A stretch of DNA of 64,000 nt, from assembly GCA_029204225.1 (NCBI GenBank), contig CM055112.1, positions 27,673,063 through 27,737,062 of the forward strand, written 5' to 3'. Below the pieces are notes generated by a model. The model saw only the letters and a program-made list of their open reading frames with translations. It was not told where the DNA came from and ran no database searches. The stretch is from Diphasiastrum complanatum. Lineage: Eukaryota > Streptophyta > Lycopodiopsida > Lycopodiales > Lycopodiaceae. This document shows positions 19,851 through 53,422 of this stretch, in pieces. Position 1 is the first letter of the stretch. Each line of letters starts with the position of its first letter. Both the position numbers and the translations under genes were made by a program.

Positions 19851-21094
19851 ATACGAAGGACATCAAGATTAAGCCATCAATGCCCATTACATTCATGGAT
19901 GACTTTGAATCTCTACAGATTCACTTGACATGTCAATTTCTACAAATTATTCTTTGTAAAAATATCAGAAAAAGTGATAAGGAAAGCATAAAAAACTATA
20001 GGCAACAAACAATAAGCTAAGGTGTCCTCCTAATGACTAGGGGGTTGGTTTGATCCTCATTTCGTCTCCTGAAGGTTAAGAGAAAAAACAATATGAATGA
20101 GGGATATACAAGAGAAAAAACAATAACATGAGTTGAGTATGATATACTTGAGATTTTTAAGATCTAGGCAAGGGATGTATACAAGCATGTTATGGAAACA
20201 AACTACTTAGTGGTTTTCATATGCAAGGGCCCCCACACTCATCCCCCGCTTTGAAGCTTTGAAGAGACAATAGAAATCTTAGATGAGGCCACTTGATACA
20301 TGACAAAATATGAAAATGTGATAACTCCTGCTTTCATTAGCCCTCAAGTTTCAATGCACAATATGACTACTTGCACTTGGATACATGGATATGTCTGTGG
20401 TACCAACATGTCCGTTAGATAGGGTGGTTTCAGACAAAGGCAGGGAAGCGAAGAGGGCACCAAATTCTTTCCATTTGTAGAGACCACTTCAACTGGCTGT
20501 CATGTTTATCACCTAAGTAACATTGATGTATGCCCCTACGTCCATGTCCAGTATTTGGGATTTAGAATAATTCCTGACATGGATAGCCAACACTCCAACT
20601 GAGAGGCTCTTCACATGCACAACCCATCCCGTGATTAACGTAAGAAGTGGGATGGGCCTCTTCTCTCTCTCTTTCCAATCCGGGTCAGAAGTCCTCTTTG
20701 CATCTCATCTTCACGCTGCCCGGATCTTGTTGCAGTTTGGGAATGAAAGATTCAAGATTTTTGAATCTGTTGCAACTAGGCCCATGATCATGCCAAAAAT
20801 GGCAAAGCATTGAACACAAGCTTAACCTGGGGAAGATGAGCGAGCTCAAAGGAGCGGTGTTGAGAAAACCGCCCCGACAGATAGTATCATGGAAGCAACA
20901 CGAGCACAACTGAAGGTGATTCCTCACCAAGGAACCCGTTCTTGATGTCAAGAAATGCAAGTGAGAGAGCATATGAAGAGGCCCTAAAACCATCTTAAGG
21001 AGTTAATTAGCATGCTTAATTATGTGTTAAGCCAAAAAACAACACAAGTTTAAGTTTCATTGAATGTAGTCAGTTTACTTGTCAGCCAGCAGCT
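19851..21094. other. intergenic region upstream of the aminoacylase gene
   Basis: No gene. 20530-20590 resembles 15840-15910. 20590-21060 should contain the aminoacylase promoter, but no TATA box or initiator stood out. A GGTTTGATCC stretch near 20050 resembles a tRNA B box without a convincing A box. Confidence 0.3.
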
Positions 21095-23259
21095 ATGGAG
21101 GATCAGCAGCGATGGCGATGGCGATGGCGATCATGCAGAGCAGCGCTATTGCTGCTCCTTTTTACTGCCACAGCTGATGCTTCTTCCTTGGGATCACAGG
21201 AGCATGGCGATGGAGATGGAGATGGGGATGATGGTGATAAAGCAGCAGTCGAGCGGCTTAGACAGTACCTCCGTTTTCCAACCGTGCATCCCGATCCTGA
21301 TTATGGCCCTGCTGTTCAGTTCCTGCTGGCTCAGGCTGCATCCCTCGCCCTTGATACCATGGTGAAAGAGTTTGTGGCAAAGAAGCCTGTGGTGCTACTC
21401 ACATGGAGGGGCCAGGATCCTTCCCTCCCATCCATTCTGCTGAATTCGCATATGGATGTGGTGCCTGTGGAGGTGGAGGATTGGAAATACGACCCATTTG
21501 GTGCTTTTATGGATTCCAATGGGGATATTTACGCACGGGGAGCACAGGATATGAAGAGCATAGGCATTATGTATCTGGAAGCCATCAGGAATCTGAAAAA
21601 GACAGGATTTAGGCCTTTAAGAAATGTGCATATTTCTTTTGTGCCAGATGAAGAGATCGGAGGTGTCGATGGGTTTGGACAATTTAGCAAATCTGAGGAG
21701 TTCAGAAATTTGAATTTGGCTGTGGGATTAGATGAAGGCTCTGGCACAGAGACTGAAAGTTACAGAACCTTTGCTGGGGAAAAATCTCCCTGGTGGCTAT
21801 CCATCAAAGCCGTGGGAACACCAGGCCATGGTTCCAAATTGTATGACAATAGTGCAGTTGAAAACCTGCTCAAATCTATAGAAGCGATTTCCATCTTCCG
21901 TACATCAGAATTTGACAAAATTAAGTCTGGGAAAGCAACCCTTGCTGATGTTGTCTCAGTCAACCCGGTGTTTCTGAAAGCAGGCACTCCTACTCCTACA
22001 GTAGGCCATTGCTACTCCATTCCATTTAATACCCCAGATATGTTCTTTGACTGCTTTGCTTTGAATGCAGCCATTTGATGGATGTGTTTGTGTAGAAGTC
22101 AGTCAAAATTTCTCATAAAAGATGGCATATCTCTTTATGGAGGACTACACATTATGCACGCTACAACTGCCACTACCCACATTTAGTTTTAGTGCTGTGA
22201 GATAACTTGTTGACTATTTTGTAGTCCAAACAATTTCTGATCGGTGGTGACTGGTAAAATTGCTTTCTCTCTTGTGCCAAATTGCAGCTTCTATTTAGGT
22301 TTAGTAGCAGCCATTTCGAATTGTTGTTGACTAGTTCAATCGATCAAGATAAAGTTCATATACGTCATAAATGCAGGGATTTGTAATGAATGTGCAACCA
22401 TCAGAAGCCGAGGCAGGTTTCGACATACGTCTACCACCATTTGCAGACAGAAAAGCAATTGAAAGGAGAATAGCTGATGAATGGGCACCTCCCCTCCGGA
22501 ACATGACCTATAAGGTACTGAGCCTGACTTTGTTTTTCTTGTTACCCTTGATTTCCAAAGCTAGGTAGTACCAAGCTCTATTAAGAAGGAAAGAATATTG
22601 CTAACACAACACAATCAAACACAGCTGTAATGTGCATAAATTTGCTAGCTTTCTAGTTGATCAGCTACTAATCAATCAAGCTGGATATGTATTCATTACT
22701 GAGATGCTGAAATTTTTTTGAATCCCAGCAAGCTTTGGGCATGACTCAGGCTTGCTAAAATGTAAGTGATACTTGCAGTTTATTCTTAAATCCGGAGGTG
22801 AAGGAAATGCATCTGCCATAGCAGCAGAGTCCTCCAAGTTGTGGTGGAAGCTCTTTGAAACAGCTTTAGCAAAAGCAGGTGTTAAGTTCAGCAAACCTGA
22901 AATAATATATGGAACTACAGATGCAAGATATGTACGAGATCAAGGAGTTCCAGCGCTTGGGTTTTCACCGATTGCTAATACCATATCTTTATTGCACAAT
23001 CATAACGAGGTGTGGGGCTTAGATTTTGTCCTTTATTTTCCCTGTACATTCCCTGGCTAAAGATAATCCGTACATTTTCTGTTTTGGTGCTGACTGTTTT
23101 GACTTGTTTTTGGAACAGTATTTGAACATGAAGGAATTTTTGAAGGGCATCAAAGTCTATGAGGAAATATTGCGAATCTTTGCCAATTACAAAAACTTCG
23201 ACTACCATTCAGACGCTGCAATATATGTGATTGACTCTTTATATATCAGGAATTTCTAG
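21095..23259 (+). CDS. ACY1: aminoacylase-1-type M20 metallopeptidase (4 exons)
   Basis: Deacetylates N-acyl amino acids; M20 family with two metal ions. Exons by GT-AG sites and frame: 21095-22000, 22377-22514, 22779-23009, 23119-23259, all phase 0, 471 residues. Seen: an N-terminal hydrophobic stretch (about residues 14-30, ALLLLLFTATADAS) that looks like a signal peptide; NSHMDVVP (H119, D121), RGAQDMK (D152), PDEEIGG (E186, E187), LDEGSG (D213), the PGHGSKLYDNSA dimer-lid motif, GTPTPTGFVMN...EAEAGFDIRLPP, and near the C-terminus TTDARYVRDQGVPALGFSP and LHNHNE (H421, H423). These match metal and catalytic positions of the family. Odd: an acidic GD-repeat follows the signal, and the segment after NMTYK (FILKSGGEGNASA) is shorter than and unlike the usual TDSNPWW-preceding loop, so a small exon may be missed. 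No in-frame stops; probably functional, secreted or ER-located. Confidence 0.9.
21110..21131 (+). repeat. GATGGC microsatellite inside the aminoacylase exon 1
   Basis: Hexamer-like run giving an alternating Arg-Trp stretch at residues about 6-11. A second GATGGAGATGG run at about 21204-21235 gives the Asp-Gly stretch after the signal peptide. Both are slippage-prone and probably length-variable. Confidence 0.7.
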
Positions 23260-28165: not shown

Positions 28166-30470
28166 AATAACAACTGCCACGTATCTTAAATAGGAACAAA
28201 ATAGTTCATCACAAGATATGATAACACAATGATTATTGTAGTACAAAATCAAGAACATATCACACAAAGAGATCAATAATCATATGATTAGAAAAAGAGA
28301 TATTCTTGCCCTTGTCATCTATTCATTAAATAAAACCAAAAAGGTACGTATCAAAAAAGTCACTATACTAATGCCAAGAAACCATTCGAGTGAGAAGCTC
28401 TCTAGTTGTTGTCACCTTTTTCGTTTGACATGAATTGGATAGCGCAACAACTAACGGTCGTTAGCCTATGTCCTCAAACCCTCTCTCGCTATTCACTTCA
28501 ATAACACAATATTCATTTATACTTTTAATTCCTATTAAACACCCTTTTGTCATAATGTCAGCTGCCATCCTAGTAGTGGGGGAAAAATTTAACTGTCAAT
28601 AACTTATCTTGGACTAGATCTTAAACAAAATGATATGGATACTAATGTGTTTGCTCCTCTTACGAAATCCAAAATTCTTACTTAGGAATAGACATCCTTG
28701 ATTATTAGTGACCAAAACGATGCTTTGTTCAACGGAAAGGTCCTTCATTAGATTGTTGATCTACAATTACACTTTACTAACGTGGCATAAACCCATATAT
28801 TCTACTTTTGTAGATTAGAGAGCCACAAAGTGTTGTTTGCAACAACTCCAGCTGATGGGAGATCATGCCAACAAGAAAATGTATCCGCATGTGGATTCCT
28901 TGTTGTCTAAGTCGCCTCCCCAGTCTAAATTAGATTATCCAATTATGTCTTGATTATTTTCTTTGAACAGAATTCCATATTTTGAGGTTCCTCTGAGTAT
29001 CGAAGGGCTCTGTTAGCCACAACCAAGTGCTCTTGGCCAAGATCTCATCAAGAACTGGCTTTAAAGTTTAGTCACAGCTACAACAATGTTTAAGCTAGTG
29101 CATATATCCTTTGTCAACTTGACATCAATATCCAATGTTGTTGATATATTGCAACAATTATTCATTTCAAAACTCTCAAGTATGTATTCTACATAATCTC
29201 TTGAGTGATCCAGGTCAAAGCGTTTAGATCTATCCATGTGAATTTGAATTCCTAAGCAATAATGGATAGCTCCCAAATTCTTCATCTCAAATTTCTAGCT
29301 AAGTTTTTCTCAAACTTCTTCAGTGAAGCTTTGTTATTACAAACAAGAATTAAATCATCAATATAAACTTCTACGAGCAAAATTGACTTTCTTATTTGCA
29401 CATACAAACTGGGATCTGAATAACACCTGTTAAATCCATTTTCAAGAAAAAACTTGTCACGTTTCTGGTACCACATCCTAGATGACTGCTTCAATCCATA
29501 GAAAGCCAAACTCGTTACCCACAAACCTGGTGGCTGTTTCATATACGCCATGTAGAAACATTGTTTTGACATCCATTTGCTCATCATCCATGTCCTATAT
29601 AGTCACCCATGCTAATATCAATCGAAAGGAGGCCATTTTCATCACAAGTGCAAATGTCTCGATATGATCTATTCCCTAAATTTAATTGCTTTCTTTTAGT
29701 ACTAACCTGGTATTATAACTTTCAATTGATCTGTCTTCTTGGTATTTGATCTTAAATACCCATTTACACCCAACTGCCTTCCTCCCATTTGGTATATCAA
29801 CTAACTCCCATCCATCATTCTTTTCAGTCTATGGATTCTGATTATTCTTTCATTGCTTCGTTCCATAACTCTCTGTCCGCTCCTTTTTTGATTTCATTGG
29901 TGTTCTTAGGTTCTCTAGTTCTTCCTTGTGTGGTGGTTAGAAAATTCATTTCCTCATAGTGCTCTAGAACATTTCTCAGTCTCTCTCATCTCCTAGGATA
30001 TTTTATCATCCCTTCATCATCTAAGAGGATTTCCATGTCAACTTCTTGAATTGTGGGCTCTTGATTTTCCTCTACCTCTAAGTCATACTCTGTGTCATTT
30101 GCTCGGGACTATAGCTCATTGTGAATTCTTGATGAATTTCTTTCTCACGGTAGATAGCTTTAAATCTTCCACCTTTGTATTCTCCTCCATTATCTGACCT
30201 TATTTGTTTGGTCTTTTCTCTAGTTTGATTCTTAGCCAATTCTTAGTAACTTTATCTTTGGTTTTCAAAGGCTAAAGGAAAATCTTCTTGCTATAATCAT
30301 CTATGAATGTGGCAAAGTATCTGGAATGTGCTAGTGATTCATTCTCCATGGGGCCGGAAATGTCAGAGTGAATTAATTCCAACAACTTGGTGGTCTGCGC
30401 ATCCACTCTCCTCTTGAATGGCTCATGTTACATACCTATGCAACTAGCAGTACTTCAGACCCCTATTGGT
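28166..30470 (-). pseudogene. copia-E fragment: integrase to RNase H
   Basis: Reading leftward: integrase end with a GGEY-like stretch (about 30150-30200) and a broken middle (29600-30130), then RT LAFYGLKQSSRMWYQKRDKF, VYIDDLILVCNN (YIDD box intact, 29282-29587), MKNLGAIHYCLGIQIHMDRS (29061-29285) and a degraded RNase H to about 28320. Frames change at 29282-29285 and elsewhere. It differs from the other copia families here in the LVEVYIDDLILV sequence. 28310-28560 is similar to 55100-55320. Dead copy. Confidence 0.75.
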
Positions 30471-33532: not shown

Positions 33533-34320
33533 CATTAGAGGAATTCTGAATCCAAAAAAGACCCATTAAGGAATGCCACTTAGATTGACAAAGTTTATTA
33601 ATGTAAATTACCAAAATAAATTCATTTTTTGTTCAAATTCTTTTTCATTTCTGTCCGCACTAGTTTCGAAGCTTAACCATTCTATGTACACTACCGTTTG
33701 TAGTTCATTTAAAATAGCATAAATTTTTAACCGTAGCTTCGATTGAGACGAAAATTATACCGTTGAAAAGCGCTCAATGAGAGCTTTCCAATGGTACCCT
33801 AGATCACCTACTTCCAAACTACCATTCAAAAGTTATGGCCGGTCAAACTTTCAGACCAAAAAGAAAAGGTCCACATATCTTTCTTGTGCGCGGATAGAGT
33901 ACCCTCTCACTGAGAGAGAGATATGTGGACTTTTTTTTTTTTTGAGTCTGAAACTTTGATTGGCCATAACTTTTGAACGGTAGTTTGGAAGTAGGTCATC
34001 TAGAGTACCGTTGGAAAGCTCTCGTTAAGCGCTTTTCAACGGTATAATTTTTGTCTTAATAGGAGCTACGGTTAAAAAGTTATGCTATTTTAAATGATAT
34101 TGCATATTATACTATGAATAACATGTCATGCTTGTGGGCTGCCCTCGGCGCCGAATTATAGCATTATTAAGAAAACTTTTTTTTTTCAATTCTAATGAAC
34201 TACGTTACGTAGATTTCAAATTTGAGTGTTTTGATTGGTCCATGTATAAGCAAAATTTGAGAAAAAATATAAAAAATATCTTTACAAAGGGTCTTTTTTG
34301 GATTTATAACTCATCTAATG
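33533..34320. mobile_element. 788-bp inverted-repeat (foldback) MITE in gypsy-2
   Basis: Outer terminal inverted repeats of 32 bp (33533-33564, starting CATTAGAGGA, and 34289-34320, ending TCATCTAATG), with an exact inner 16-bp core AATCCAAAAAAGACCC at 33549-33564 and its complement at 34289-34304. An inner inverted repeat pairs 33706-33905 with 33905-34096 (CATTTAAAATAGCAT at one end, its exact complement at the other). Removing 33533-34320 rejoins the gypsy RNase H reading TGT-TTT-GAG without gap, so I see no target-site duplication. No coding capacity. Confidence 0.8.
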
Positions 34321-35668: not shown

Positions 35669-35719
35669 TATTAGAGGAGTTTTCAATATCAAAAAGACCC
35701 TTTAAGGAATGCCACGTAG

Positions 35720-36540
35720 GATATAGAAAAATATCAAAATAAAAAAAACAATATTGTTTATTTGCTTGCCCACACCACTCCCAAGCCTCCCCAACTCCCA
35801 ATGATCTAACCACAGTGTCTATAGTCACAGTTAAGAACTGTTAACAGTTCGCAATATAACTTGACTAAATTCAAAAATATTCCCTCCATTGGTTACGAAA
35901 AGGGCAATATTTTCACTGGATCTAGAATATGACCGCCATCCCCAAATTCAATTTTGAAAAAATTGCAAAATGTTTACATATGTATTACTTCCACGAGAAT
36001 GAAAATATGAGCGCCAACTACCTATTGGAATGAAAAAATGAGCGACATTTTCAAATTTGAATCAAGCATACAAGCATGGAGATTGGATTGATCGTACATA
36101 GTATATAATATAATCAAAGATGAATATTTTGTTTTGCTTCATAGAATCTGGTCATAGTACTTTGATGCAACTGATTACTCTATTATTTTTTTGATGATGA
36201 CATTATATCATTTACGTGTGGATATCCCTATTGATTTGGCACCTTTGTAGAGAAGAGGAGGCAAAGGAATTCAAATATCTGTTGAGGATCGTTCTCGTTA
36301 CAGGGCAGAAGGAAAAAAAAAACTTGGATTTATGGATAGATGGAACATTATATCCACAAAATCCAAGCACTTTGACACATCCCACATTCTCTTCAATAAC
36401 TCATTTAGTTACATGGATATACAATGGGCATAGTGGATTACTAGGATATTGTGAAAGATTGTAGAACCATGGAAAACAACTTTATATGAATTAAGTCACT
36501 TTTAAGAAGGTGAGTTAATTTGGATATCATCTTATTGTTA
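35720..36540. other. element T left non-coding part
   Basis: AT-rich. Contains frames without motifs (for example 36216-36464). A possible 5' exon of the transposase-like gene may lie here but could not be fixed. A palindrome-like TTAAGAACTGTTAACAGTTC occurs near 35833. Confidence 0.3.
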
Positions 36541-38700
36541 GAATAGAGATTGTCATCTCCAAAAGACGTTAGAAGAAAATGAACAACTTAAAAAAAAATG
36601 AATCATTATAGAAGATAACAATCAATATCAAATCAGAACTAGAGCAAATGCAATCAATCTTACAGTCTATTCATATTGAAAACTTACAATTATTGAAAGA
36701 TGTGGATTTGGCAAAGAAAAAGGCTGAAAATAAGAAGCGAAAGCGACAAAGTTGCAAGGATATTCAAACGCTTTCAAAAGGAGGTTATCAAAATAGAAGG
36801 ATCCGTGCATTCAAGTAAGCATATTCTGATTTTTGTAAGTTTTTCAATGACATTTGGATTTAATTTCAACTATGGTGATATTCTGTTAACTATCTATTTT
36901 TTTTGCAGATCTGCATTAGTAGCTCCTCAGGATATTAAAGACAAAGCTTCACTAGGAATGTCATTGGGCACAATATTGACTTGCAAATCCACTGAGCGTA
37001 TCATGATGAACAATAGGATTTCAAATGTAAAGTGTAAAATAGTAGAGCCTTTGATGGTGGACATTCAAATTTTTTTAGATAAGACTATAGTTCAGGGTGC
37101 TTGTGATTTTGCAGGTATTAGCAGGGAAGCATATGCAACAATATTTAAACTAATTAGAGAAGCTTTTAAGCAAGTTCAAATTAGAAAAGTCCCAATCCCT
37201 AAGACATATCACTTGAAGAAAGAGAAGGATACATTAAACATAGGTATGCATAAGATCACTGGAACTCCATTTCATATTGAGGAGGTGTATGAAACTGATG
37301 GAAGATCGATATTCTATAATTCATCAAACAATTTATTTGTTGATCTAAATTACTTGCTGAGATACATTGTCACATTCTATGATATAACCTATGAGATGTG
37401 AATGGCAAAATAATCATAGTAATTAAGTTAGATCAGTCAGAAATTGTGAAAGGGCAGAAGATGGAGAGGGTTAGTATAACTCTCATGAATGGTGCTCTAT
37501 CACAAACAGAGAACCAAGAAGATTTCAGATTCAGTGTCCAGTTAGAAAATGATATATGGTGGTTGGCAACGTTTCAGGTAACTAGCCTCATTATTACATT
37601 ACATTCATTAAATAGTATTTATACATTGTAAACTAAGTCTGATTAATTCTTTGGACAGGTGCTGAAAGAGGATCATGATATATTATCATGGATATTCTCA
37701 AGGACATCTTATCCTAGGATCATCAAGGACCATATGGATGAAGGACTTCTCAATGTTCCAAGAGTTGGAGACTTCAATGTTGAATGGCACTTAGCAGATG
37801 ATTTGAAAACATTGAAATGTATGTATAATGTCTCTCACGGTGCTACATCAAAACACCCTTGTTTGTATTGCATGAAAATGGCAAAAGATGTAACTAGGAG
37901 TACATGAACTACTAGAGAATATGCAGATCCAAACTGGAAGCCTATGCTGCCTATCCCCTTAAAAAATGTGCATGTTTGCACTCTTCATGTAGAAGTTAGA
38001 TTAATAGAAAAGATCATTTATCTTCATATAGTTTTTGCTTGGAATACTAAGCCAACATCATTAGCAAAGGAAGCTATCTCTCGATCAGAAGATGTTTTAT
38101 CAAAAGCAGGACTCCATAAAGGACATGTCAAAATTTAAAAGATGAAAAACTCACGTCATTTTCTATCAAATCATACTGGTAAGGCTTCTAACATTCAACA
38201 CTCAGTCTGGACAGATATTATTGCTGCTAAGAAAAAAAAAACTCTGATATTGATAAGAAAGTTGTCCAAAGGACTTGTGTCGAGTTTGTTAATGCAGTAT
38301 CAAAAGCATGGGAAGAAGATCACATCACTCATTACATGGTTAGTATAAAATTTTCAAAATGCTTTTAAATTTTCATATATATTTAGATCCAAACATAAGA
38401 CTAACATTATGATTTTGACATATGCAGCACATACTAAGAGATCATATAGCATTTCTTGCAAATACATATGGAAGCTTGAGTGTATGGTCATCACAAGGGA
38501 TGAAGAAGTCACACTGGCAAGCACGAGCAACATTTCATCGAAATACACAACATGGAGAAACCAATGAAAAACGAAACTACATTTGTCAATTGTTTCAGTG
38601 GTTCTACCGCAGAGTTCAGATTCGACACATAACAAAGTCCACACAATACAACAAGTTTAGAAAAGCATGCAAGTTCATACAGGAAGCGAAAATTAGATGA
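36541..38700 (+). pseudogene. transposase-like gene (DDE-type candidate with CxxC insertion), decayed
   Basis: Model: exons about 36541-36814, 36909-37577, 37659-38338, 38428-38700, with GT-AG introns. Seen in order: a coiled coil (EENEQLKKK, SELEQMQSILQS), a basic stretch KKKAENKKRKR that could be a nuclear signal, a conserved middle, IVIKLDQSE (candidate first acidic residue), VEWHLADDLKTLKCMYNVSH (second), HGATSKHPCLYCMK with a CxxC pair, LHVEVRLIEKII, and SVWSSQGMKKSHWQ near the end. Breaks: a one-base frameshift at about 37397, TGA at 37905-37907, TAA at 38136-38138, an A-run frameshift near 38235. Family (from memory): resembles uncharacterised transposase-like proteins common in cnidarian and other repeat-rich genomes, with a GATSK-PC-WC and QQG-EK signature. 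The catalytic assignment is inference. Confidence 0.6.
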
Positions 38701-38908
38701 TTGATGAGTAGAAAATCATCATTGTCATCAAATCATAACATGTTCAGAATTGCTTTGCAAATTCATTGAACAAGAGAGGAGAAATACCCAATGTAAATGT
38801 ATTGATTGTATTATACCAAAATACAAAGTGTCAACTATTCATCATCAGATCTTGTATCAGATTCTATGGCAGTATTGTCATGAAGAAATTCTTTGCTAGC
38901 ATATGCAT
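38701..38908. other. convergent 3' ends
   Basis: Short spacer between the transposase-like gene (+) and the orphan gene (-). AT-rich; no gene. Confidence 0.4.
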
Positions 38909-40323
38909 CTAATAGATGTGCATTATTCTTATTTTCACTAAGCTCAATATAAGTGGAATACAATGAATAATCCTTAAAGGAACATTCCCATCAGTAAAAC
39001 CTAAAATGTTCAAAACATAAGATCTTTTGACAAAAATGATATATTTATGTCCTCCTAGGTAAAATGATAAAGCTTTAACTGCCATTATAAGACTCTCCCC
39101 GACTAGGCTCAGCTTGGAATGAGCAATACAGATCTCATTCTTCAGGAAATGCCTAAGATAGTAGCCTAGTCCACTGTCCCTCTGGAACGAGGATGCGTGT
39201 TGTCTGAAACCACCTCGTCTCGCAGCAAAATCATCTATTATGAGAGCATCCTGGAATAGGAAATATGTTAGCAAAAACACATTCAGTGATTGAAAACATT
39301 CAAATGCAAGGAGGATTAAACACTTACACATTCTTCATCATCAGCAGCAACCAGATTAGGATGATCAATATAATGACCACGTCCTAAAGTGGAATTATTA
39401 GTGAAATGCATTAATGATGGACGAGGGAAGCCCACCTGGGATTGAAATGCCGTGAATTCTTCATCGGATGGTCTGCCTTGCCCATCCTCAACTATATTCG
39501 ATAAAGTCTTATTCAAGCATTCTTCACCGGTCATAAGTCCCTCCTCATCATCAAAATTAATACCAGCAACAAGGTCATCTGTTTCAAAATCTACAAAGTT
39601 GGAGAATTCGGAAATTGTGCCAGATAATAAACATAGAACCTCGTCCTCACGATAGTCAAAAAATTTACATAAATCAGTAGTAGCAAAATATACATTAATA
39701 TAATATACAGACAAATTGAAAAGACATTTTGCCTCCTCCATAGATTTGGATTCATCATCAATTGTATTTTGGCCAATGAAAGAATCCCGAAGAACATCAG
39801 TATTTACATCAATAAAGTCACTTTTCTTATCAAGAGTGTCGATAAGAAAGTAACTGATATCCTTAATAGCTGACTGAATAGAGGATGGTGCAAAAGGAGG
39901 GTCAGCAACAGAAACATCATCATCATCTGGGATCGGAACTAACAAGAAAAGTACGAAACCACTCTGAAATTCAACCAATCGACATTTCTTGCTGTAATAC
40001 GGACACATTGAACTGCTTTTCAAAAGATCAAACAATTTGGTAAACATTCTATCCAGTCTATGTCTGAAAGCTGAGAAGAAATGAACAAGATCAGTATAAT
40101 GCATGTACTGGAGTGGACCTATGGAGAAAACAGGCTTACTAAGTATATCTTTGAATCTGACATAATGGTCATAAAATACGTTAGAATTTGGTTGTGCAGT
40201 CCTAAAAACATGTAGATATGGCCTGAATAGAATGTGAAAATAGTCTAGGTTTTTAGTAATCCCAAATTCACTAAGAAATGAACTCAAGCTTGAATCTTGT
40301 GAGGATGATGAGGAAGAGGCCAT
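38909..40323 (-). CDS. orphan 445-residue protein, two intact exons
   Basis: Not recognised. Exon 1 is 40323-39328 (332 codons) and exon 2 is 39250-38909 (113 codons plus stop); the donor TGT|GTAAGT and acceptor TATTCCAG are canonical and the phase is 0. Start chosen at 40323 because its context GCCATGG is ideal and a Ser-rich leader (MASSSSSSQDSS) follows; the frame extends further upstream without need. Seen: mostly globular, rich in Phe, Tyr, Asp and Leu; an acidic linker near residues 140-150 (PIPDDDD) and further acidic patches; a C-terminal part with RRGGFRQHASSFQRD, LGYYLRHFLKNE and hydrophobic helices. No signal peptide or obvious membrane segment except weak C-terminal hydrophobicity. 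It is the only undamaged long gene in element T and shares an inverted promoter with the H3-ULP1 gene, so a joint role is inferred. Confidence 0.75.
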
Positions 40324-41099
40324 GGCAGTAACGTGAATATTGCACTTGTGCACGAGGGAGAACTGAACCAAAACTAACTATCAAGATGGCGCACAAGAGG
40401 GATATGTACGGCAGGCAGAATCCGAATATCGCACTTGTGTGCGAGTAGGTATAGAACGGAAGGCAATGAGCGTGCACAAGAGCGATATGTCGCGAATCGA
40501 GAATGAAAAAGATAAAAAATTAATCGGTTTTCATGACACGTGTCAAATTTCAATTGGACTACAGGCGCAGGCACGTGTGAGGTGACACCAACACACGTGT
40601 GAAATGACACCTACACACGTGTCGTGTATTCATTCGTTTGCTCGACAACACATGTCGCTCTCGCATAGATCGTACAAATCTCACACGTGTAATGTGACAG
40701 AGTGACACGTGTCGCTCTAGCATTTGTCCGTACAACTCCCACACGTGTGACATGAGTTCTTTCATACGTGCGAACCGCAATATAAAATCACAAACTTCGA
40801 TGAATTTTTTTCACTTTTTTTTAGGCTCCGCATATGGCACTTGTGCGCGTCTTTCACAATCAAAATTCCTCCTACCGCCTTCCATGCGCACAGGTTCGAT
40901 ACGTCTGCCTACGTGTCACCCCATATCGCACTTGTGCGTCTTTCCTCAAAACTAATCATTCTCTCTGATATTTGGCTCGCACAGGTCCGATATACTGTAC
41001 ATTCTGTCCGTACATATCGGTCCTCTGCGAGTTCTTTATCACCCCTCCCTGCTCATCCTAACTGTCATGCACAAGTCCGCTATCACATAGTACACGTCC
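40324..41099. promoter_or_regulatory. divergent promoter built as an inverted duplication
   Basis: Between the orphan gene ATG (40323, minus) and the H3-ULP1 ATG (41100, plus). Each side carries four motif copies near ATATCGCACTTGTGCG in alternating orientation. Left arm: 40337 (+), 40389 (-), 40426 (+), 40471 (-). Right arm: 40923 (+), 40978 (-), 41013 (+), 41068 (-). Two extra copies lie at 40832 (+) and 40886 (-). Reverse-complementing the left arm aligns the four copies with those of the right arm and places the nearest copy 14 and 17 bp before the two start codons. No TATA box was assigned. Confidence 0.75.
40537..40747. promoter_or_regulatory. cluster of seven CACGTG palindromes
   Basis: CACGTG at 40537, 40572, 40594, 40616, 40684, 40706 and 40742, mostly within ACACGTGT. 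Three of the six spacings are exactly 22 bp. CACGTG is the G-box/E-box core bound by plant bZIP and bHLH factors. The block also contains a direct repeat of about 57 bp (40649 and 40706). Confidence 0.75.
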
Positions 41100-42845
41100 A
41101 TGGATAGGAGAAAGCAGACAAGGAGGGACTTCTTCTCTCTCGGCTCATCCTCATCCCCTACGGTTGCCATCACACCACCCGCTAGACCTAGAACGCGCAA
41201 CCGCAGCAGGTGGCTCTCTGAGATACGCAAGTATCAGAGATCAACAGCTCTGTTGATCCCAAGAGCTGCATTCTACCGTGCTGTCTAGAACATAATAAGA
41301 AATGATCTTGGACAGCTGGTTAGATTCACACCCAGTGCTCTTCAGTGCCTTTAGGAGGCTGCTGGAGATTACATTAGTCTTTTTTTTTAGGATTCTTTTT
41401 TGCTTGCCATCCATTCCAAGAGGGTTACCATAATGCCCAAGGATTTTCAGCTCATGAAGAGGATGAGAGATAGGTACTGTAGGTTACATATATCTCAGCC
41501 TGCTGCTCCTAGACCAACTCTTGTAGATAGGACTGATCTTCCTACGAAGCATCCTAGGAAGCAGACAGCCCCCAAGCGTGCTCCTAAGAAAGTGAAGCCT
41601 AACCCTCCAAATTCTATGAAGCCTAACCCGGAATCCATTGTAGATAACGCTGCTGTTGATAATGTTGTAAATATAGCTACATCTATTTTGGATACCCCTT
41701 CAATTGCTATAGATACTACACATCCACATCCACCTCCTCCTCCAAATTTTTATACATATATAGATTCGGATGATTATCTTCAATTTGAGAAAGACATATC
41801 TGATGCTATAGATACTATTGGTACTCCCTTTTGCTTTAGACTAGATGCAGTTGATTTTAGTATTAATTTTAGACTTATAGATTGCTTGGATTGCAAAGTC
41901 AGACGGGCTCCTATCAGTGATCCTGTGATAGAGTCCGGGCTCACACTCTTGCAATATGACATTGCAAGAGATTCATCAAATGACTTGCTGGTGCTGAGTA
42001 ACTTTCTGCTTCAGGCCTTCAAAGAGAACAATGACACATTGTCACAGTTTTTGACTAGTAAATTCACACCAGCAACAAAGTATTTGCTCATACCTTATCA
42101 TACGAAGTAAGATATATTAAATGCTTCTTGTTGTTTTATGCATTAACATTGGCATTGTCAATGGAAATAGTTCTCAGAATTGCAACTAAAAAAATTTCAA
42201 TCTTATTTTGCAGTGACCACTGGAGTTTAAACCAGATCTCTATTAAAAGATCTGTAAATAATATTATTAAAGGTTTTTGTGTCAAGATGAATTCGGTGAG
42301 AAATACGCATAAGGATGTAGATATGTACCTTCCATATCTAAGTAAATATATTCCTACAGACGTTTCCCATTCCGTGGATTGGCAGATCATCAGTTTGGAG
42401 GTAAATTTTGTCTTTCTTAATAGCATTTTGAAATCAGTATTCTAATGAAATATTTTCAATCTAATTCATTCTGTTTCATAATTGATTTCTTGTGTGCTGA
42501 ATTATTTTGCAGTCACCCCAGCAAAATGATTCATTCACCTGTGGGTGGTACAATGCCAAGTTATTTTTAGACTGATTCGTCCTTTAACAAGATGTTGATA
42601 TTTCTAAGGTAATAAATTCTGTTTATTCTTATTTTGGAATCATGATTAGTTTTCTATTATGGTGATGTTTTTGGCCATTACTAATACATGAATGTTCTAT
42701 TTTGCAATTTACACTTCCTGAGTACACATCAAGCCAGGTGTACAAATTTAGACAAGAAATTATCCTGAGTATACTGGCTAGGGCAAGGCTTCAGCCTCCC
42801 ATTATTGATGATGGTGCAAAGGATGATGTAGTTATACTAAATTAA
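41100..42845 (+). pseudogene. histone H3/CENH3-like domain fused to a ULP1-type (C48) protease, decayed
   Basis: Exons 41100-42106, 42214-42400, 42513-42608, 42708-42845; one continuous frame of 476 codons including the final stop. Residues 1-30 begin MDRRKQTRR, like the H3 tail. The histone fold (about 35-127) reads WLSEIRKYQRSTALLIPRAA, RFTPSALQCL, LLAIHSKRVTIMPKDFQLMK; the LLIP-A-F form and one extra residue before RF resemble CENH3 more than canonical H3. A proline-rich linker follows (HPHPPPPPNF). The protease half has YLLIPYHTNDHWSL (His338), DWQIISLE and PQQNDSFTCGW (Gln402, Cys408), the ULP1 His/Gln/Cys pattern; the usual Asp after His is not evident. Breaks: TAG at 41286, 41352 and 41388, TGA at 42573, TAA at 42585, and the last acceptor is AA instead of AG. 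Histones package DNA (CENH3 marks centromeres); ULP1 enzymes process SUMO or related tags. A combined function is inference. Confidence 0.8.
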
Positions 42846-42989
42846 GATAAAAAAAAAATATAGATAGCATAGAACAAAAATACATGTATAGACTTCATAG
42901 AAAGATATACATTGATATATCAAATGTTGCTCCAGTTTATAGATTTGGGAGCACAAAATACATGTATAGATGCCCAACTTGGGCTTTCA
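42846..42989. other. junction of element T with copia-B
   Basis: AT-rich. AAAATACATGTATAGA occurs twice (about 42878 and 42955). No terminal repeat matching 35669 was found. Confidence 0.4.
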
Positions 42990-44900
42990 TTCCACGATCA
43001 TTGCAGAAATCAGTGAATCGGTTTGAGATGTATTCTCCACCCCGATCAATTCTGATCTGCTTCACCTTGTTTCATGTGCATCTTTCTGTCCAATTCACAT
43101 ACTCTGTAAATTTGTTAAATGCATCTGATTTATTGTGAATGAAATAGACTCTGGCAAACTTACTGTGATCATCAATAAAGGTGATATAATATTTTGAGCC
43201 TCCTACTGAGATCACGTTGAAAGGTTCACAGATGTCTAAATGTACTAGCTCCAGAATCTATGTCGTTCTATAGGAGTCCTTGACAAAAGGAGTACGTGAC
43301 ATCTTACCCTTTATACATACATCACAGGTCATCGAACTGGTTGCATTCGAGATGCTCACCCCTATGATTGCTCCATGATGGCTTGCTTGATATAGTGTTA
43401 TTGAATTCATATGGCATAGTCTCCTGTGCCATAGAATGTCTGATGAATCATCATGGGTTTGATGCACGTGATCTGTAGGTAGGCGTATCTTCAAGTGATA
43501 CAGGTTGTCTTTTCTTCTACCTTGAGTAATCACTGTACTGGTGTCTTCATCAACAACATTGCATGCTTCGTCTGAGAACGTCACACACATCCCTGCATCA
43601 GCTATTCTTGCCACTAATAGCAAGTCCTGCTGCAGCATAGGCATGAATAGAACATCTTCGAGCCGTCTATCTCTGTCGTTAATGTTGGGCCATAGTGAAC
43701 CAATACCATTCACTTGATGCTTTGATCTGTCTCCAAGAATAGTAAATCTTGATGGATCTGCACTTCGGAAATCAGACATTATCTGTCTTGATGTAACAAA
43801 GTGCGAGGTAGCTTCTGAATCAAGGATTACCTCCTGTGTGTCAGGTGTTGATACTGCACACATGTTTGCATAGATGTAGGCGGTCGAATTTCTGTGATTC
43901 GATCTTTCTTCGCCCATCTTTGAGCTCTCTGGCTCCTCGACATAGGATGAACTATTATTGTTCTCCTGTCTGCTTTGAGCTTGTTTGTTTCTTGGGTTCT
44001 GGTGGCAATCCATGGCTGCATGACCCTTCTTATGACAGTGAATACACTCAATTTTTGGAATTAGCCAACACAAATCGACAGTATGTCCTTCGCGTTTGCA
44101 TCTCACGCAGGTCTTCTTGTCTCTGCTCTATTGTTTTGACCTTCCTTTGTTCTTCCATTTGCCTTTACTGACTCCTTCTGCTTGCTGATCTCGATCATAC
44201 TTTCGGTCTGACTTCCTCTTAGGCTTGAATTTCTTCTTAGTCTTTTCTTTGTTGCTGTAAAGAGCTTGGTCATAAGCATCCTTGTGATCAAGGTGCTCTC
44301 GAGCATCGACTTCTTCTCAAATCTCGACAACTGCCTTTTCGAGTGTCATAGTAGGATCCTTTGCTAGCAGCGTTCTGGTTGTCTAAAAGGATCTTGGTAA
44401 GGCTCTCAACAGATAGGTAAGCTGCTTTTCTACTGATACTGCATTCTCTGCTCCGGAATTGTGTAATGAAAGAAACAGATCATTCATCTTTTTGATAAAG
44501 GATGTGAGGTCTTTGCCATCCCATTACAGGTTTGTCAGCTGATCTTCAAGAAGCATGATCTGATTGCGTGATTTCGTCTGAAATCTTATGAGTAAAGTAT
44601 CTCACGTCTCTTTTGCTTTAGAGAGTGTAGTCAGGTTTTGATCCAGGCTATCCTCGATGGATGATGACAACACGGCTACTGCCTTGTCATTCTTCTCTCT
44701 CCATTTGCGTAGCTCCTTGCCTGTAGTTGTAGGCATCTCCTCGGTGCCATCTACCCAGGGAAATAATCCTTCTCCCTTTAGTATAAGAGAGGTCTTAACC
44801 TTCCATGCTAGGAAGTTAGATCCTGATGAGTCGAAGATTGTACAGATTTTTGATTGTATACTGCTTATTGAAGTCATTGTTGTGAATTGTGTTCTCACTT
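42990..44900 (-). pseudogene. copia-B copy: gag, protease, start of integrase
   Basis: Reading leftward from 44898: UBN2-type gag (NFLAWKVKTSLILKGEGLFP, EEMPTTTGKELRKW), broken near 44600 and 44330, two knuckles in 44100-44000 (CKREGHTVDLC, CIHCHKKGHAAMDC), protease LDSEATSHF (G of DSG is E), pre-integrase ILWHRRLCHMNS...CDVCIKGKMSRTPF, and the integrase core to GGEYISNRF near 43020-42990, where it stops. RT and RNase H are absent on this side. A 282-codon stretch (43258-44106) is open. Same family as 57931-59700 and 62767-64000. Dead copy. Confidence 0.85.
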
Positions 44901-46588: not shown

Positions 46589-47447
46589 GAATTGTTAAAA
46601 TTCACATGTGTGGGAATGCCCTAAAGTGTGAATATGATCTCCTAAGCAAAGCTTTTGCACTTTAGATCAACACTAGATTGAAATCCAAGATCTATGTCAA
46701 AATCTAAGGCAAAGAAGCAAAGATAGATGCATAGATTGATAACCAAAAGTGTTTCACACGTTGACTAGAAATCTTTATGACACCCCAAAAGTCAACATTA
46801 TAAACTAATTTTAACTATTTTACACATGTGGGAACATGCTCCACACGTGTGAAATGTACTTACAAACATAAAGTCATAAAATAACCAAACCAAAAGTGTC
46901 CACACAGGTCTAGGTGCCATACCTAACCCTCTTCAAAAGCTTATAACTTTTGATTGGCTCAACCAAATGGATTGAAACAATTTGCTACAAAAACTAGACA
47001 GATCTAGCTCTCAAACAAGCTATCTAACACCAAATTTGGATCTAACTTGGAAGAGAACCACCCAAATGAATTTGGTTGTCCTTCACACGTGTCTGAGCAC
47101 TAAATTCCGTATAGTACTAGATCTGGTCCAATCCATATGATAATGAACCCTCTTGATCCAAAAATCACTAAGATAGCATGGGAGATGCAATCAACACTCT
47201 CTAGATCTTGATTTTCATGAAATTTTCGAATTTATGGATGATAGATGCATCAATAGCTTAGGTAGGCTCTGATACCATGTGAAAATTCACACATGCGAAT
47301 GCCCTAAAGTGTGAATATGATCTCCTAAGCAAAGCTTTTGCACTTTTGATCAACACTAGATTGAAATCCAAGATCTATGTCAAAATCTAAGGCAAAGAGG
47401 CAAAGATAGATGCATAGATTGATAACCAAAAGTGTTTCACACGTGGG
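46589..47447 (-). mobile_element. TRIM-like element remnant
   Basis: A 160-bp direct repeat (46599-46762 and 47282-47447) is nearly identical and starts with AAATTCACA. Next to the right copy, the reverse complement of TGGTATCAGAGCC (GGCTCTGATACCA) ends at about 47276, as expected for the PBS of a minus-strand element with a 5' LTR to the right. Internal part about 500 bp, no coding. CACACGTG occurs three times. Confidence 0.5.
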
Positions 47448-49148
47448 AAAAGTACATCATGAAAAAACTCAAACAAATGAAGCTCCTCTCCTAGGGTAGA
47501 GAGAGAATAGAGTAAATTGCCCTCGGGTAGAGAGAGAAGGAAATACAAGCAAAATTGATTGATGTCACAACTGACTCAAAAACTCACATTAGATTATGAT
47601 AGAAAATCAAAGTACATATAGAACTTGTGGAGATCCATGCTTCAATCCTATGGGACCCCTCAATCCTAGCCTCTCTAATCCTATTGGATGTGTGATGCAA
47701 CATCCCTCACTTTGATTGGACCCTTACAGCACATCTCCCTCTTATGATGGACCCTTTGACTTTTGCCACCACATAGGGTGCATCACTCATCAAACCTAAA
47801 CTTAACATGGGTAAGCAACCTAACTAGATCGAGTTTGTCATCTTTGACTTTTGGTCAAATCAACACAAAACAAGTGCACTTGCATTCACATTAGTTTACT
47901 GGAACCTGCTTTAAACCCACCCGATATGTTCTCGACATATATCAAACATCTTGAAGCTACATTGTTGACATCTTGGACCTTGCAAGTTCATATCAGTATA
48001 CTAGGGCTCTTGTTAAGGAGTGCACTGCATGCACTCCATGTAAGGGAGTGCATGTGTGCAATCCTCACCACCCCTCTCCTAGCTTAAATTTTTGTCTTTT
48101 TTCATGTGCAGATGCGCTCACTCCCCTACATGGTGCAAGCAGTGCATTTCTTAAGTAGGCTTATATACTAGAACCTGTTCATAGTATGTGAGCAAGCACA
48201 TGCTCCATTTTAGTCTACATTAAAAGGAAAAAAAGAAAGAAAGGTAGAAAGTCCCCCCAAATGCAAGGATAATAGACACACATGTTACCGTTGGTTAGCC
48301 CTAGTAAATGGTAACCGTTTGAACGTAGAAGCAAAATTCAAATCTGTTTCTCTATTCTCCCTCTTTCTTCACTCCCACCCCTATAGCTCACCATGCTTCG
48401 ATCTCGATCGATCCATTGGATCTCTGGCTAGATTTCCCAGACCCTTCGATCTGACATATGTCCTCGCAGATTGAGCAAGTGCTGACGATGAGGAGGGTGT
48501 TTTGCTGTTGGCAATTATGAGCTCTTGTCATTGCTTGTTTTGGAAATCTATCTGTCCAATGTCTGGTTTTTTGGATGCTGCATTTAGACAGTAATGCATG
48601 CTGCCAAGCTGATCAGCAAGCTAATGGCTCAATTTTAGTATGTCCTGGTTTGTGATTAGGATTCTAGTTTCAGCAAAGAAGCTGCACTGACATCGAAAAG
48701 CCTTGTTCTTCTTTGTCTCTGGTTTTCTATACAGGTTGCCCAGTCCTCATCCCTCAAAAAATATGCAGAACGTTTCCATAAATGCATGCAAATTTTGTCA
48801 AGAACAAGCAATTTTGCAGATATTGATGTTAACTGTTGATAGAGCATTGAACTGTGCTGATGCTGATAGGAAGCTAGACATATTGTTGCTTGGTTGGGGT
48901 CCTTATGAACTGGGTGTTACGCTGAGCTCTTGGTAATGCCAGTGGCCACACGCCCCAAAAGAGGTACCACTCCAGAGCTGCAGCACCTCCACCGCATAGA
49001 ACGAAACATCCAAGGGAGGTGCACCAGCGAGAAACAAGTCCACCTGGATTTCTGAAAGCTTCAGAGGCACAATATTGCATCGATTCTTTCCAGGCATGTG
49101 AGCTTTGTTAGTGAAAAGCAGCAGCTGGACAGGAATGGTGATAGAACA
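47448..49148. other. intergenic and probable 5' untranslated region of the kinesin gene
   Basis: No coding gene. 48340-48500 is pyrimidine-rich and gene-proximal. A plausible 5' UTR intron runs from CTTG|GTAATG at 48935 to TTTCCAG at about 49093, which would place an untranslated exon to the left. A GGAGTGCACTGCATGCACTCC near-palindrome lies at about 48017-48037. Confidence 0.4.

Positions 49149-53422
<4,274 letters not shown>

Follow-up and report, generated by a model that had tools for sequence, protein, structure and literature searches.

Transposon-borne histone H3 and transposon-borne ULP1 proteases are both known, each on its own. On the protease side, the Ulp1-domain proteins VANC and KIU (Kaonashi) are encoded by VANDAL-type MULEs and, according to the available part of a review, are tied to short motifs in non-coding DNA (PMC13317346). 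The same source describes ULP1 in MULE-ULP elements, and the accessible parts of two further papers place ULP in CACTA elements of grapevine and rice (PMC2528002) and C48 peptidases in CryptonF and CryptonS elements (PMC3212892). On the histone side, the available portions of two reports describe H3L inside a hAT transposon of Pyrenophora tritici-repentis (PMC3538342) and H3 inside hAT elements of Pseudocercospora fijiensis and its relatives (PMC6710886).

In this study we describe a locus of Diphasiastrum complanatum at which the two are joined in one protein, here called H3-ULP. The locus lies in a stretch of 64,000 nt (G000:C21:27673063-27737062), to which we refer as a whole as the window. 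An initial annotation had stated that no example of such a protein was described. For the fusion this agrees with our finding none in the literature searched, which left most subscription papers and preprints outside its coverage; it does not hold for the two halves, given the H3 genes of hAT elements and the ULP1 domains of MULE and CACTA elements cited above.

H3-ULP resembles VANC and KIU in being a transposon-encoded Ulp1-domain protein whose element has short motifs in its non-coding DNA. It differs from them in its H3 fold, no histone being mentioned in the available part of the review, and in its setting, as VANC and KIU sit in non-TIR MULEs whereas H3-ULP sits in a TIR element whose transposase has no Pfam match (PMC13317346). 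With CACTA-ULP, MULE-ULP and CryptonF/CryptonS elements it shares an Ulp1/C48 domain as passenger or partner in a DNA transposon; those elements belong to other transposase classes, and the accessible text on them describes no histone domain. The fungal hAT elements are similar in that a DNA transposon carries H3 next to a transposase (in Pyrenophora also next to an ORF of unknown function) and has multiplied it, but there H3 is a separate gene, with no protease mentioned in the available portions of the reports, whereas in H3-ULP it is fused to C48. These systems differ also in target-site duplication, which is 8 bp in Cercospora zeae-maydis and an inferred TA in our element, and in the state of the copies: according to the same portions, fungal H3 copies are near-identical (Pyrenophora) or RIP-inactivated, while the fold of H3-ULP is diverged with low dN/dS.

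Results

The H3-ULP gene

The four exons of H3-ULP (Table 1) join into 1428 nt of a single frame without any frame break, exactly as the initial annotation had read them across three introns. The window copy is itself broken, because it holds five internal stops (residues 63, 85, 97, 419 and 423) and the acceptor of its intron 3 is not AG. Its exon 3 measures 96 nt against 105 nt in intact copies, with the 9-nt difference lying right behind the catalytic Cys. A structure prediction for exon 1, in which TAG was translated as Gln, reached a mean pLDDT of 35.4 and yielded no usable model.

Residues 28-122 of the window translation match the Pfam family Histone (PF00125) with an E-value of 7e-21. 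The best solved relatives of this part are H3 proteins, with H3.1 in the PDB reached at 1.7e-18 by the window sequence and at 8.3e-25 by a profile built from six copies. By these matches the N-terminal part of H3-ULP is a histone fold of the H3 type; in the profile of the copies it also retains KRVT and KD of H3. The conserved H3 tail is absent, and the tip RxKQTxR alone has been retained (RRKQTRR in the window): across 43 aligned copies, whose choice is described below, R3 is present in 43, K5 in 41, Q6 in 38 (with stops in the other five), T7 in 40 and R9 in 42. While H3 ends near its last helix, H3-ULP continues for 350 residues past the histone fold.

A Pfam scan of the whole 475-aa window translation does not return Peptidase_C48, whereas the C-terminal 294 residues scanned alone match it with 28.2 bits (cut-off 20.7, E = 2.1e-6). 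The family is also matched by each of six copies tested, at best with 1e-10, and solved structures are reached weakly by sequence (SENP2 at E = 0.0089, Ulp1 at 0.015). On this evidence the C-terminal part is an Ulp1/C48-type domain, and the fusion of an H3 fold with a ULP1/C48 protease proposed in the initial annotation stands. Three C48 loci were set aside, two of them (L001, L002) as apparent host ULP genes by eye and the third (L003) as ambiguous on reading.

Of the 43 copies, 41 have the catalytic His, 39 the second Gln and 36 the Cys, the remainder being gaps or other residues; in copy L044, which is otherwise open, Phe replaces the catalytic Cys. All 43 copies have Asn at the site aligned with the catalytic Asp of Ulp1, with the caveat that the Ulp1 alignment is weak and the site may be misplaced. 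In papain the third catalytic member is Asn. Since papain also uses this residue and the alignment is weak at this point, the Asn would neither prove nor exclude SUMO cleavage, which is thus not assured.

Table 1. Features of the window, and sister-family loci elsewhere in the genome.
Feature	Position	Strand	Remarks
Short stretch	33533..34320		Ends like those of the element (CATTA/TAATG flanks); inverted repeat I2, direct repeat D2
Transposon remnant, left part	35674..42991	+	blastn to L034, homology 35670-42991
Left TIR	35674..35703	+	GAGGAG..., TA directly before
Transposase-like open stretches	36697..38720	+	ORFs, broken in window; 90 genome places scored
Gene 2	38909..40322	-	Predicted ORFs; open stretches 39316-40322 and 38909-39334
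15-mer array	40337..41083		Between gene 2 and H3-ULP; 9 15-mers (ATATCGCACTTGTGC) flanking a core of CACACGTGTG palindromes
H3-ULP exon 1	41100..42106	+	H3-like tip, tail, histone fold (residues 38-125), proline-rich linker, protease start
H3-ULP exon 2	42214..42400	+	DHW (catalytic His) region
H3-ULP exon 3	42513..42608	+	PQQND..CGW (Gln, catalytic Cys)
H3-ULP exon 4	42708..42845	+	C-terminal part up to TAA; acceptor not AG in window copy
Family B loci	L065-L068, L070-L073, L076, L077, L080, L081; also C2616:22198-23271, C4:3324380-3325462
Family C locus	L069, G000:C13:7458104-7458397		More diverged H3-like gene (KFMEEIKKYQKSTRLLLLRAPF...)

Copies in the genome and selection

Genome searches were run on the 1.74-Gb assembly. 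With the exon-1 protein as query, 90 places were listed, the window among them, from 12,799 first-look candidates; the remaining 89 are 74-88% identical to the window, and the majority of the listed matches extend from residue 1 to about 336. Exon 1 is stop-free in 16 of the 90 listed matches (one of the 16 spans residues 1-308 only), and stops are present in the other 74. Chance is excluded as the source of the fusion reading, because the same reading recurs across the 90 listed places.

Full alignments were made for 43 copies: the window; 28 of 30 loci from the exon-1 search, leaving out L004, which is the window, and L033, whose exon ends could not be aligned; L036 and L037; and 12 copies chosen by hand, in most cases because their exon 1 has no stop and in some for their divergence. 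Certain of these copies are near-identical to each other. Six of the 43 (L031, L037, L042, L044, L045 and L049) are stop-free with GT-AG at all three introns, a proportion that, coming from a non-random sample, does not represent a genome frequency. The initial annotation had asked for the joined architecture with intact frames, to be sought in fern and other plant genomes; these six show it in other copies within the same genome.

Selection was assessed by a pooled pairwise count on 37 non-redundant copies, reduced from the 43, which gave dN/dS values of 0.365 for the tail, 0.267 for the H3 fold, 0.636 for the linker and 0.342 for the protease. As a control for reading frame, the five alternative readings were scored too. 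They yielded 0.35-1.08 in the H3-fold stretch and 0.44-1.52 in the part of the protease encoded by exon 1, where the true frame has 0.277. The lowest control value in both sets comes from the same antisense reading, which we take to share the wobble position of the true frame. Decay after insertion should draw dN/dS towards 1. Given six open copies and low dN/dS in both domains, H3-ULP is, as judged from these comparisons, one protein preserved by selection. A search of viral contigs with one protein, of a kind that reaches close relatives only, returned no relative.

The transposon

To define the limits of the element, four copies were retrieved, with 10 kb of sequence for each. In the complete copy (L034 plus L038, on C18) the two ends lie about 9.26 kb apart and consist of identical 30-bp TIRs, GAGGAGTTCTCAATATCAAAAAGACCCTTT and its reverse complement. 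TA flanks both ends, inside CATTA/TAATG, from which we infer a TA target-site duplication; the copy thus has the TIRs and, with that qualification, the duplication of a cut-and-paste element. Both ends are present only in L034/L038, the second copy, L037, being without its left tip. At two insertion places the TA lies within CATTAATG. The window retains the left part of this element (Table 1). Of the right part, about 1.85 kb was not found between positions 30000 and 50000, and the sequence to the right of 42991 is foreign to the other copies and copia-like by reading. In view of these alignments the locus belongs, in decayed form, to a large, high-copy family of DNA transposons, which bears out the mobile-element setting suggested in the initial annotation.

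The order of genes in the element is transposase-like (+), gene 2 (-), H3-ULP (+) and, near the right end, a fourth gene (-). The transposase-like protein has no Pfam match above cut-off, and hence none to a MULE or hAT transposase domain; a composite query matches RAG1 weakly (E = 0.93) around GSLSVWSSQGMEKSH, and kinship with RAG1 is at this level only a lead. Gene 2 and the fourth gene, the latter in a hand-joined reading, likewise have no Pfam match above cut-off. In L037 the fourth gene occupies about 1200-2775 on the minus strand of the element and includes the stretch SYWKAKILEFKTTPGGQ.... H3-like hits, taken from a second list of 72 histone hits hand-picked as mainly of the window family, occur within 8 kb of at least 14 transposase places among the 90 listed, with 0.13 expected by chance. 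All 14 are on the same strand as the transposase and 2.1-4.0 kb downstream of it.

The 15-mer of the array upstream of H3-ULP was counted in both orientations with up to 3 mismatches. The window contains 11 matches against 1.44 expected, and nine of the 11 fall inside the array. The upstream 1 kb was also read in 29 other copies, a set that includes near-identical loci: 24 have at least four 15-mers there and the other five have one, with simple shuffles averaging 0.2 or less. None was seen in 12 loci of the sister family B described below, which extend little upstream of the coding part. More CACACGTGTG-like palindromes, together with a direct repeat of 151 nt whose copies are 683 nt apart, occur outside the remnant at 46602-47448.

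A short stretch to the left of the remnant (Table 1) is probably a non-autonomous relative, to go by its ends and by a 75% match between 34177-34320 and the right end of L037. Its internal inverted arms measure 163 nt and are 90% identical. Elsewhere in the window, a kinesin-like host gene (49056-49919 and 52191-53276) and a peptidase M20-like gene (21020-22078) were tentatively recognized by eye.

Sister families and the origin of the histone

A histone-domain search of the genome gave 153 matches, of which 150 were listed: 13 canonical H3 near 164 bits, 134 matches at 95-110 bits and, at 83-84 bits, three short matches, one of which turned out on reading to belong to a canonical H3 with introns, as one of its exons. 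Loci were retrieved from the group at 95-110 bits, 17 in all: four belong to the family of the window (family A), 12 to a family B and one to a family C. The protein of family B has the tip MARTKQTAR (read in L066), a Ser/Arg-rich and polyproline region and a C-terminal H3 fold, with a stop within few residues past the fold in the 12 loci. With a family-B query, 117 places in the genome were scored and gave 307 matching stretches, two being full-length without a stop, and the fold has a dN/dS of 0.32 (11 copies). In the family C locus the fold is closely preceded by an open stretch that also starts with MARTKQTAR, the exact H3 tip. Gene 2 has homologues, 30-35% identical (E = 7e-10 to 6e-4), next to 11 of the 12 B loci and next to the C locus. 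One B locus was extended, and by reading it shows retroelement-like ORFs after gene 2.

Three of the four family A loci have the C48 protease; in the 13 B and C loci, at each of which about 3.3 kb were read, it was not found. As no C48 turned up near the H3-like genes of the sister families over these 3.3 kb, it is probable that the elements of this lineage had the histone first and that family A gained the protease later. Of the original proposal that an element captured a histone and joined it to a protease, the fusion is upheld and the order of events is revised: H3-like genes are carried by B and C as well, and the protease was probably joined to a histone that the lineage already carried.

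The fold of family A is 51-53% identical to the host H3 and 48-52% identical to two plant CENH3 sequences. A tree of 14 folds places A, B and C in one group (83/86), apart from the host H3 and the CENH3 sequences, with the deep branches unsupported; the CENH3 of the host itself was not found. H3-ULP is like CENH3/CENP-A in combining an H3-type fold with an altered tail and in having LIPxAPF in helix 1. This motif is common to the A folds in the tree, to B and to the rice CENH3 (the window copy reads LIPxAAF). The EDY and KDF of H3-ULP also occur in one or other of the two plant CENH3. Compared with H3, loop 1 has one extra residue in H3-ULP and two in both plant CENH3. H3-ULP is unlike CENH3/CENP-A in being multi-copy and mobile and in its C-terminal protease; in the tree, as far as its deep branches allow, it does not group with CENH3. 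Of the captured CENH3-like histone in the initial annotation there remains a real H3 fold whose CENH3 ancestry is not established; a recent capture of CENH3 is not upheld.

Discussion

Our preferred reading, which is unproven and to which we assign a probability of about 0.4, is that H3-ULP is an anti-silencing chromatin factor encoded by the element. The H3 fold would pair with H4 and so place the protein at the chromatin of the element; alternatively, it might be recruited by binding through H3 chaperones or readers of the H3 tip, and targeting could be seeded at the 15-mer array. The protease domain would then remove or bind SUMO on silencing proteins at the element, which would thereby escape heterochromatin and remain transcribed. 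H3-ULP would act like VANC and KIU of VANDAL elements, with the histone in place of their targeting part. Each of the three steps (fold to nucleosome, Ulp domain to SUMO, array to targeting) is something we infer. This reading draws support from the precedent of KIU and VANC, in which, as far as the available part of the review goes, an Ulp1 domain is found together with short motifs in non-coding DNA (PMC13317346). It is supported as well by the single frame, the H3 and C48 matches, the open copies and the low dN/dS of the domains, and by the array in 24 of 29 copies, the H3-like hits near the transposase and the gene-2 homologues in the sister families. It is weakened by the Asn at the Asp site in all 43 copies, by the five of 29 copies with one 15-mer and the 12 B loci with none, and by the stops in 74 of the 90 listed exon-1 matches. 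The array, moreover, could be a plain promoter or a transposase-binding region.

A different role, rather unlikely in our estimate, would be in transposition itself: the fold would bind nucleosomes or DNA and direct insertion towards particular chromatin or gather the transposase there, and the Ulp domain would be a SUMO-binding or regulatory module. The invariant Asn fits binding over cutting, H3-ULP shares its element with the transposase-like gene, gene 2 and the fourth gene, and gene-2 homologues adjoin H3-like genes in the sister families; yet the array is internal, beside the H3-ULP gene and away from the ends of the element, and the insertion-site evidence is limited to TA within the same short sequence at two places. 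The conservation of the RxKQTxR tip across the 43 copies, together with the exact MARTKQTAR tip in both sister-family loci in which the start was read (L066, L069), would be expected if H3-ULP were an H3 decoy whose tip and fold sequester H3 chaperones and H3K4 readers or writers, with the protease adding stability or a SUMO contact. We regard this as less probable again, as a decoy acting by its tip only would have no need of a fold with a dN/dS of 0.27 that retains KRVT and KD.

The abundance of stops among the listed exon-1 matches is also what one would see if the histone were a captured passenger without function, as in transduplication by Pack-MULEs or in the RIP-inactivated H3 of fungal hAT elements, and gene-fragment capture is common in plant transposons according to the available part of the review (PMC13317346). 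Pooled dN/dS values of 0.27 and 0.34, taken with the frame controls, contradict such a history, and six fully open copies among 43 and a similar histone in the sister families, with a fold dN/dS of 0.32 in B, also speak against it; we consider it quite improbable. The five stops and the broken acceptor of the window copy could by themselves have suggested an artefact, neighbouring genes or a wrong gene model having been joined by eye. This explanation can hardly be credited and is refuted at the level of sequence, as exon 1 by itself spans the H3 tip, the linker and the start of the protease, is stop-free in 16 of the 90 listed matches, and is followed by GT-AG introns in all six open copies.

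A wider version of the anti-silencing reading, possible but doubtful, would see here a selfish histone: a transposon lineage with its own long-kept H3 variant, in at least three families, one of which would have added a SUMO-protease domain to build or edit its own nucleosomes and evade SUMO-dependent silencing. Transposon silencing is usually told as the host acting on passive DNA. If the anti-silencing reading is true, an element with its own histone under purifying selection, joined to a domain of the SUMO-protease type, would strike directly at nucleosomes and at SUMO-dependent silencing, and H3-ULP would be a natural tool to tether an activity to H3-containing chromatin. The open copies in the genome make its function testable in cells.
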